From: a virus
Length of the DNA: 56,980 nt
Strand: one strand, 5' to 3'
IMG/VR virus record: IMGVR_UViG_3300025632_000018
Span: 1 to 56,980 of that record
A program made the translations under genes and the position numbers. The notes below the pieces were generated by a model. The model was not told where the DNA came from. It did no database searches and saw only the letters and a program-made list of their open reading frames with translations. Below, piece by piece: positions 5,126 through 5,702 of this stretch. How positions within the stretch are numbered: position 1 is the first letter of the stretch; each line of letters opens with the position of its first letter.

Positions 5126-5189
5126 TTCCAAAATATCGGCAAAAAAAATCCCGGCAATTTTTTGGTCTGTAGGGATTTTCAGAAACCTC

Positions 5190-5218
5190 TTGACTAAATA
5201 CAGTATAGGGTCTATAAT
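5190..5218 (+). promoter_or_regulatory. consensus sigma-70 promoter for the riboswitch unit
   Basis: TTGACT (5190-5195) and TATAAT (5213-5218) are separated by exactly 17 bases. The predicted start, about 5225, coincides with the first base-paired position of the downstream RNA motif. This would be read by unmodified host RNA polymerase. Confidence 0.85.
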
Positions 5219-5221
5219 GGA

Positions 5222-5282
5222 CCTATCGTTCATCAGAGGAGACTCTGACGCAAGTAAGTCGCGGAACGGAGCCGTTCATCCC
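5222..5282 (+). promoter_or_regulatory. glutamine-II (Downstream-peptide type) riboswitch
   Basis: The leader begins CGTTCATC, then an AGAG-GAGA-CTCT hairpin, then GACGCAAGTAAG and GGAACGGAGC, and ends two bases before the ATG. CGTTC near the start can pair with GAACG in the core, and a second GCCGTTCATC copy just before the start codon can form an alternative pairing. This order matches, from memory, the Downstream-peptide/glnA glutamine aptamers of cyanobacteria and cyanophages. In that class a pseudoknot next to the start codon controls translation of a small protein. The peptide encoded here is also of the expected type. The boundaries are approximate. Confidence 0.82.
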
Positions 5283-5444
5283 ATGATTGAATTTCTTTTA
5301 TATTCATCACTCACATGCCAACAAGCCGATAGTATTATGCTGAAGATGAAAGCAAACGAGAATCTCTCTGATGCTTTTAAGGTTGAGTTGGTAGAGACCG
5401 TAAAGGAATCTGTACCTGAGTGTATATGGGACGCAAACGACTAA
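5283..5444 (+). CDS. riboswitch-controlled downstream peptide
   Basis: A 53-residue protein (MIEFLLYSSLTCQQADSIML...) ending in SVPECIWDAND. It is of the small type that follows Downstream-peptide glutamine riboswitches in marine cyanobacteria and their phages. ATG at 5283 is chosen because it immediately follows the RNA motif; an in-frame ATG at 5218 overlaps the -10 box and is unlikely. Biochemical role is unknown. By analogy with glnA-type control of glutamine synthetase inactivating factors, it may act on nitrogen assimilation; this is inference. Confidence 0.8.
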   Translation: MIEFLLYSSLTCQQADSIMLKMKANENLSDAFKVELVETVKESVPECIWDAND

Positions 5445-5485
5445 AGGAACGGACCTAAAAATCCAACTACTTTAGGAGTAAACAA

Positions 5486-5653
5486 ATGAACACACTTCAA
5501 ATGATTAAAAAGCAGATCAACAAAGTATCTGCACTGCACGACGCACAGATCACTCACACCTCATATCGTGGTGTTGAGTATGATACTCGTTGTGTAAAAT
5601 CAAACGAAACACACGGTACATTCTGTTATCGTGGTCGTGTCTACAATAAGTGA
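5486..5653 (+). CDS. DUF4278-like small protein
   Basis: A 55-residue protein preceded by TAGGAG five to ten bases upstream of the ATG. It has two repeats of Y-R-G-V/R-x-Y (TSYRGVEYDTR and CYRGRVYNK), the signature of the cyanobacterial/cyanophage DUF4278 family. It follows the riboswitch peptide by 41 bases and is closed by a terminator, so the two genes probably form one short early transcript. Function unknown. Confidence 0.75.
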   Translation: MNTLQMIKKQINKVSALHDAQITHTSYRGVEYDTRCVKSNETHGTFCYRGRVYNK

Positions 5654-5674: not shown

Positions 5675-5700
5675 AGGGGGGTTGCAAGACCCTCTTTTTT
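5675..5700 (+). terminator. Rho-independent terminator
   Basis: A G-rich arm (AGGGGGGTT), a GCAA loop and GACCCTCT form a hairpin followed by six or more T residues. It closes the riboswitch/DUF4278 unit. Confidence 0.8.
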
Positions 5701-5702
5701 TA

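Follow-up and report, generated by a model that had tools for sequence, protein, structure and literature searches.

Both types of glutamine riboswitch found in the hosts activate on glutamine, and their usual targets are DUF4278 genes (PMC6316151). In marine picocyanobacteria, Glutamine-II (RF01704) precedes short ORFs as well as DUF4278 genes (PMC2864571, PMC6316151), and the nucleotides of the class II aptamer that contact glutamine have been defined in a crystal structure (PMC6698751). In cyanophages and other marine phages, glutamine aptamers have been reported as Rfam matches (PMC9964418, PMC9004378, PMC9602691). The locus described here shares with type I (RF01739) the P1 helix CGUUC:GAACG, a P2 hairpin and P3, and in most relatives the E-loop AAGUA/GAAG, whereas an additional aptamer-like core and an entire gene lie within its P3, its junction reads CGC instead of CGG, and its P1 strands are separated by approximately 220 nt. 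With Glutamine-II it has the strands CGUUCA, GACGC and GGAACGG in common, but it lacks a P2 around the strand B1, and nested rather than pseudoknotted pairing is supported. The host gifB/IF17 and PMM1846 units are alike in that a glutamine aptamer precedes a DUF4278 protein; as a difference, the aptamers of the examined host loci are compact and lie in front of the gene. A further resemblance is to the promoter-early-stem-loop cassettes of T4-like phages, where a promoter and a hairpin precede exchangeable small early genes (cited in PMC4503421); the cyanophage hairpins differ in forming a covarying aptamer-type fold that includes coding sequence.

The stretch analysed (the window) is a 57-kb viral contig from an IMG/VR record with cyanomyovirus-type genes; thyX and PhoH lie close to the element, and DUF6433, glutaredoxin and carbamoyltransferase are encoded as well. 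Relatives were drawn from IMG/VR and GenBank, and about 180 distinct cyanophage arrays were compared. The arrays were surveyed using sequence patterns, hence the conservation of fixed letters is partly by construction, whereas the claims regarding codon bias and GGAACGG rest on loci found by protein similarity. BLAST located the conserved motif in 417 phage records, in which the listed features are hypothetical proteins or none. Comparison of these sequences leads us to propose, with a probability of roughly 0.6, a promoter-led transcript in which a nested pair of glutamine-type aptamers would be built around a small gene (ORF1) and would switch the following gene (ORF2). The features of the locus are as follows.

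5190..5218, + strand: sigma-70-type promoter TTGACT-17-TATAAT
about 5225, + strand: transcript start expected from the promoter
5227..5231, + strand: A1 (CGUUC), 5' strand of outer P1, pairs with 5447-5451
5233..5248, + strand: outer P2 hairpin UCAGAG-GAGA-CUCUGA, from pairing across arrays
5249..5256, + strand: junction CGC-AAGUA, 5' side of the type I E-loop, from the RF01739 match and relatives
5257..5261, + strand: 5' strand of outer P3, AGUCG, covaries with 5438-5442
5264..5277, + strand: inner P1 hairpin GAACG-GAGC-CGUUC (B1:A2), paired in 178/178 arrays
5279..5285, + strand: 5' strand of P2', UCCCAUG, contains the ORF1 start codon (5283-5285)
5283..5444, + strand: ORF1, 53 aa, in the loop of P2', PHROG 504
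5425..5431, + strand: 3' strand of P2', UAUGGGA, within the coding end of ORF1
5432..5434, + strand: inner CGC, presumed equivalent of the linking strand of the glutamine pocket, by reference to PMC6698751
5438..5442, + strand: 3' strand of outer P3, CGACU, its last base being the first of the ORF1 stop codon
5441..5475, + strand: alternative (off) helix CUAAAG (5441-5446):CUUUAG (5470-5475), overlaps the ORF2 Shine-Dalgarno site
5443..5446, + strand: AAAG, 3' side of the E-loop, including the final two bases of the ORF1 stop codon
5447..5451, + strand: B2 (GAACG), 3' strand of outer P1, pairs with A1
5475..5478, + strand: Shine-Dalgarno sequence GGAG of ORF2
5486..5653, + strand: ORF2, 55 aa, PHROG 545 and probably DUF4278 (PF14105), by profile matches here and in relatives
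5675..5702, + strand: terminator-like hairpin with a T run, from a sequence scan

A sequence-only reading of this DNA had described a phage glutamine-type riboswitch with its own promoter, and that much is well supported; its assignment to class II, its restriction to the 5'UTR and its peptide-only target are not supported to that degree. The promoter, called perfect there, is indeed present and strong, although it matches 11 of the 12 consensus positions. A scan of 15 kb found 60 promoter-like sites with 57 expected, so that the match alone proves little; a promoter-like site stands at the equivalent place in 143/170 hairpin-led relatives. The glutamine-aptamer motif begins at 5227, about 9 nt past the -10 box, and its core pattern occurs once in 57 kb and in none of 100 shuffles. 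The RNA was said to sit two bases from the start of the peptide and the unit to be self-contained, ending at 5444, whereas 14 nt separate the end of the strand GAACG from the ATG, and the 3' half of the aptamer, the regulatory helix and the DUF4278 gene occupy 5425-5653. Between the upstream gene and the promoter, at 5146-5182, there is an inverted repeat, AAAATCCC...GGGATTTT, perhaps the terminator of that gene.

Strands A (CGUUCA) and B (GACGC...GAACGG) alternate along the arrays, with a short hairpin or a small ORF as the spacer between them: 167 arrays are of the hairpin-ORF type, 30 are ORF-ORF, and L365 is hairpin-ORF-hairpin. In the window, the 5' motif GACGCAAGTAAGTCGCGGAACGGA (5247-5270) is repeated on the 3' side as GACGCAAACGACTAAAGGAACGGA (5430-5453, 71%), and CGTTCATC, found at 5227, recurs at 5273 directly before the start codon. 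A plain hairpin takes the place of the gene in L083, L093-L095, L097 and L365, with a GAAA loop in four. Circularly permuted arrays without the 5' CGUUCA strand were considered and rejected, since that strand does occur in them, some 200 nt further upstream and in front of a different small ORF. In the 30 ORF-ORF arrays (L123, L162, L316 and others), an additional small ORF, often with ..LKSKVEG.C.., lies in the P2 loop of the outer aptamer, so that two genes are enclosed per array.

In the Rfam scan, no family reaches its gathering score at the site. The window RNA alone scores 23.6 bits against RF01739 (cutoff 35), a profile that cannot span the gene, and this is the sole relevant weak match; RF01704 is absent at the site and gives just an unrelated 6-bit match. 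The Infernal/Rfam search thus does not support the Glutamine-II/Downstream-peptide class to which the RNA had been assigned. Relatives without ORF1 exceed the RF01739 cutoff in cmscan (L083, Synechococcus phage ACG-2014f, 41.1 bits; L093, 37.9 bits; L095, 35.6 bits), and their alignment is nested, with P1, P2, P3 and the E-loop matched. The maximum for RF01704 in relatives is 32.7 bits versus a cutoff of 33. A Glutamine-II pseudoknot would have a P2 flanking GGAACGG, and none was found around B1; with this helix missing and no RF01704 match at the site, we rejected membership in that class. The helix CUAAAG:CUUUAG around B2 does resemble a Glutamine-II P2, but the A2:B2 knot it requires is contradicted at pair 5 in 27/178 arrays. 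The glutamine-aptamer signal is real, and the earlier reading saw just its first half; judged by sequence comparison, the RNA appears to be a full aptamer with the type I parts P1, P2, P3 and E-loop.

The three-way junction formed by P1, P2 and P3 is supported by pairing and covariation over 149-178 arrays. A1:B2 is paired in 149/149 arrays, and its single compensatory change occurs in L371, where A1 becomes CGUUU and B2 becomes AAACG together, restoring A1:B2 alone; the support for P1 is this double change plus constancy. GGAACGG directly follows the stop codon in 104/105 ORFs found by protein similarity. In the outer P2, a fraction of 0.937 of cells is paired, compared with a shuffled mean of 0.737. 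P3 covaries as AGUCG:CGACU, AGUCA:UGACU (3/3) and AGUUG:CAACU, with few changes, and its weak point is a C-A mismatch in 17/178 arrays (those with AGCCG). AAGUA of the E-loop is present, and the opposite side is GAAG, the consensus, in 120/183 arrays and AAAG, as in the window, in 63/183. The mean predicted probabilities of outer P1 and P3 are just 0.03 and 0.02, the fold being about 6 kcal/mol above the ground state in the window. Since both helices are absent from the predicted ground state, they would need ligand and tertiary contacts to form.

Inside the outer P3 there is a second, circularly permuted aptamer core together with a start-codon stem. This stem, P2', follows A2 and precedes the second CGC, carrying the start codon on one strand and near-C-terminal codons on the other. 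It covaries (UCUUAUG:CAUAAGA, UCUCAUG:CAUGAGA, UCUUGUGG:CCACAAGA) and, by thermodynamics alone, has a predicted probability of 0.969 in the window and a mean of 0.79 over 149 arrays, versus 0.011 for a slid control. GGAACGG, CGUUCA, P2' and CGC correspond to the glutamine-contacting nucleotides of class II in circularly permuted order, hence a second glutamine-binding site in the inner core is possible. L340 and L360 keep the motif, including CGC, although their reading frames end ahead of it; in the ORF1 tail, Asp codons are GAC 203 : GAT 5, in contrast to 39:205 elsewhere in the ORF. Selection thus acts on the ORF1 end at the RNA level. In the modelled ligand-free fold the ORF1 start also lies in P2', so that translation of ORF1 may be weak, or may occur only where ribosomes prevail over the structure.

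ORF1 itself is a real protein under purifying selection, with a median dN/dS of 0.23. The 53-residue peptide of the sequence-only reading is confirmed as a 53-codon ORF, placed inside a longer frame in the ORF list. Over its full length (residues 1-53 of 53) it matches PHROG 504 (E 1.4e-27), a family conserved among cyanophages, in which two Cys are invariant. When predicted alone, with rows from GenBank phage records left out, its structure is a helical hairpin (mean pLDDT 83); searches of Pfam, NCBIfam and PDB gave no relative, and the fold search returned just matches with E above 4. The variants in L116, L118, L406 and L409 have Sec-like signal peptides, and as the family keeps its two Cys, some members may be exported and disulfide-bonded.

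ORF2 of the window scores 23.1 bits against DUF4278 (PF14105; cutoff 25.3, E 9.4e-5), and 29/30 of its aligned relatives match the family at E ≤ 0.01, the best at 2.3e-7. The stop-codon strand of ORF1, CU[A/G]AAG, pairs with CUU[U/C]AG, which overlaps the ORF2 Shine-Dalgarno sequence; 99.5% of cells in this off helix are paired, with A-U, G-C and G-U variants, and its mean probability is 0.925. The pairing covaries with the stop codon (U to C variant, UAA 34:0 and UGA 22:39; Fisher p 3e-11, a value that ignores kinship): UAA never occurs with the C variant, while UGA occurs with both, as A-U, G-C and G-U pairing requires. Tree-aware counting, which recombination may inflate, gave 6 changes in the same direction and 0 in the opposite. 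The off helix draws on nucleotides that the outer aptamer also needs, and in the window ligand-free folding favours the former by about 6 kcal/mol, suggesting that ORF2 is off by default and that a ligand would turn it on, which agrees with the direction reported for host glutamine riboswitches (PMC6316151). Another hairpin that could block the Shine-Dalgarno site, CCUAAA:UUUAGG, is not conserved and was rejected. The peptide alone had been taken as the target; the regulatory helix lies at the ribosome-binding site of the next gene, and a link to nitrogen control is better founded for this DUF4278 gene than for the 53-aa peptide. By eye, host peptides behind Glutamine-II aptamers (L304-L307; MN.L.QIREKI.RA.R.YEAQ..) look similar to phage ORF2 in its N-terminal half (MNTLQMIKKQINKVSALHDAQI).

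From these results, a hypothesis regarding the mechanism may be put forward, in which the RNA structure enclosing a whole gene probably controls the nitrogen-linked gene behind it; we infer glutamine as the ligand, the direction of switching, the second binding site and the fate of ORF1. The outer aptamer would be of type I, with A1:B2 as P1, the 5' hairpin as P2, AGUCG:CGACU as P3, and the E-loop, and P3 would contain the permuted core composed of the inner P1 hairpin, P2' and CGC. The complete ORF1 would form the P2' loop; P2' would hold the start codon of this gene, and the outer E-loop its stop codon. When glutamine is lacking, CUAAAG, the strand with the stop codon, would pair with CUUUAG at the Shine-Dalgarno site and close ORF2; glutamine would draw CGACU-AAAG-GAACG into P3, the E-loop and P1, freeing the site and turning ORF2 on, while the start of ORF1 would remain closed in P2'. 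Ribosomes that translate ORF1 would disrupt this fold. More tentatively, and with the odds somewhat against it, the element may be a two-site riboswitch, in which a canonical type I and a circularly permuted glutamine aptamer stand back to back on one P3 and enclose the complete gene, glutamine locking the inner start and opening the gene that follows, and the sensor being dismantled in turn when the inner gene is translated.

With two strands of each kind, A and B, four helices are possible, and the nested arrangement had to be weighed against two side-by-side glutamine aptamers, of which A1:B1 in the 5'UTR would control ORF1 and A2:B2, Glutamine-II-like with ORF1 in its P1 loop, would control ORF2, the B1:A2 hairpin being the off state of both. 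Such a layout would fit the sub-threshold RF01704/RF01739 matches of 22-31 bits, mostly at A1-B1, in the 19 relatives scanned, the score of A1-B1 in L365 (35.1 bits, at the cutoff) and of A2-B2 in L083 (32.1 bits), and a sub-class with CCGAC[TA]CGG, hence its own mini-P3, in B1; moreover, A1:B1 could form first during transcription. Covariation contradicts it. Pair 1 of B1:A2 is G-C in 151 and C-G in 27 of 178 arrays; the pair 5 bases of B1 and A2 are swapped together (G-C to C-G) in 27/178 arrays, while A1 and B2 are unchanged except in L371. The swap leaves B1:A2 and A1:B2 paired but disrupts A1:B1 and A2:B2, which supports nested pairing: pair 5 is broken without compensation in 26/149 arrays for A1:B1 and 27/178 for A2:B2, with the nested pairs intact. 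On the ORF2 tree, the B1 and A2 states change 16 times each, and on supported branches the independent pairs change together in 6/6 cases, a tree-aware count that recombination may inflate. The mean predicted probabilities are 0.14 for A1:B1 and 0.002 for A2:B2. The nested model also predicts P3 as AGUCG:CGACU, leaving AAGUA opposite GAAG/AAAG as in the type I E-loop, whereas side-by-side pairing leaves both the P3 covariation and the E-loop strand unexplained. We consequently rejected side-by-side pairing as the fold and regard it as an unlikely account of the locus; the nested helices, the alternative helix and the identity of ORF2 are all supported by comparison.

The nested RNA might instead not, or no longer, bind glutamine, and either couple the translation of ORF1 and ORF2 or sense another ligand or ribosome traffic. 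The AAAG variant of the E-loop in 63/183 arrays points that way, and the off helix and the stop codon would fit translational coupling; with the pocket strands CGUUCA, CGC and GAACGG kept in both cores and ORF1-less relatives above the type I cutoff, we consider loss of glutamine binding rather improbable. Far less credible is the idea that small early genes are exchanged at the repeats, which would be kept as recombination substrates and not as a sensor. The flanked ORFs are exchangeable, the ORF0, ORF1 and ORF2 families varying between arrays, and promoter-early-stem-loop cassettes are described for T4-like phages (cited in PMC4503421); however, DNA exchange predicts neither compensatory changes, nor covariation between stop codon and Shine-Dalgarno site, nor an Rfam riboswitch match, and it may act in addition to a sensor. 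Hardly any weight is left for a free-standing Glutamine-II aptamer in the 5'UTR that controls just the 53-aa peptide, as first proposed: the promoter, the 5' motif and the ORF were correctly located, but the site has neither an RF01704 match nor a Glutamine-II P2 around B1, and the proposal ignores the conserved 3' half and the DUF4278 gene.

Returning to the nested switch, its gene-enclosing arrangement looks phage-specific. The B1 motif and ORF1 were each found in 0/300 host-family genomes, while the control, RF01704, was found in 42/61, and a host origin of the cassette was rejected for this absence. The host homologues of ORF2 in L428 and L429, two genomes found by ORF2 similarity, have an RF01704 aptamer (43.9 bits) just upstream. 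In the main texts of the open-licence literature, we found no report of a gene-enclosing aptamer or of nested glutamine aptamers; on sequence grounds, the element would be a variant of a known riboswitch class in an arrangement not previously reported in that literature. Weinberg in 2010 reportedly tied a conserved peptide sequence to the Downstream-peptide motif, which may anticipate part of it. If the proposal is true, a whole gene can interrupt an aptamer and lend it its last codons and stop codon as parts, and split riboswitches, which score below family cutoffs, are missed by standard annotation. The arrangement would point to cyanophages sensing the glutamine of the host so as to time a DUF4278 protein; hosts place members of this family under glutamine riboswitches, and the N-terminal part of a glutamine synthetase inactivating factor belongs to it.

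Several observations concern individual relatives. The sub-class with CCGAC[TA]CGG in B1 comprises L082, L085, L355, L365 and others; this sequence could give a mini-P3 and a free-standing A1:B1 aptamer, and the sub-class may use the tandem rather than the nested fold. A strong manA RNA (RF01745) adjoins the cassette on its 3' side in L087 (2251-2444, 182.6 bits) and L084 (1962-2156, 141.7 bits), placing two structured RNA elements in a row. Finally, a Glutamine-II-like motif is present at about 4989 on the - strand of L215, a Dehalococcoidia metagenome-assembled contig from the Red Sea, which is possibly a misbinned phage or picocyanobacterial contig.
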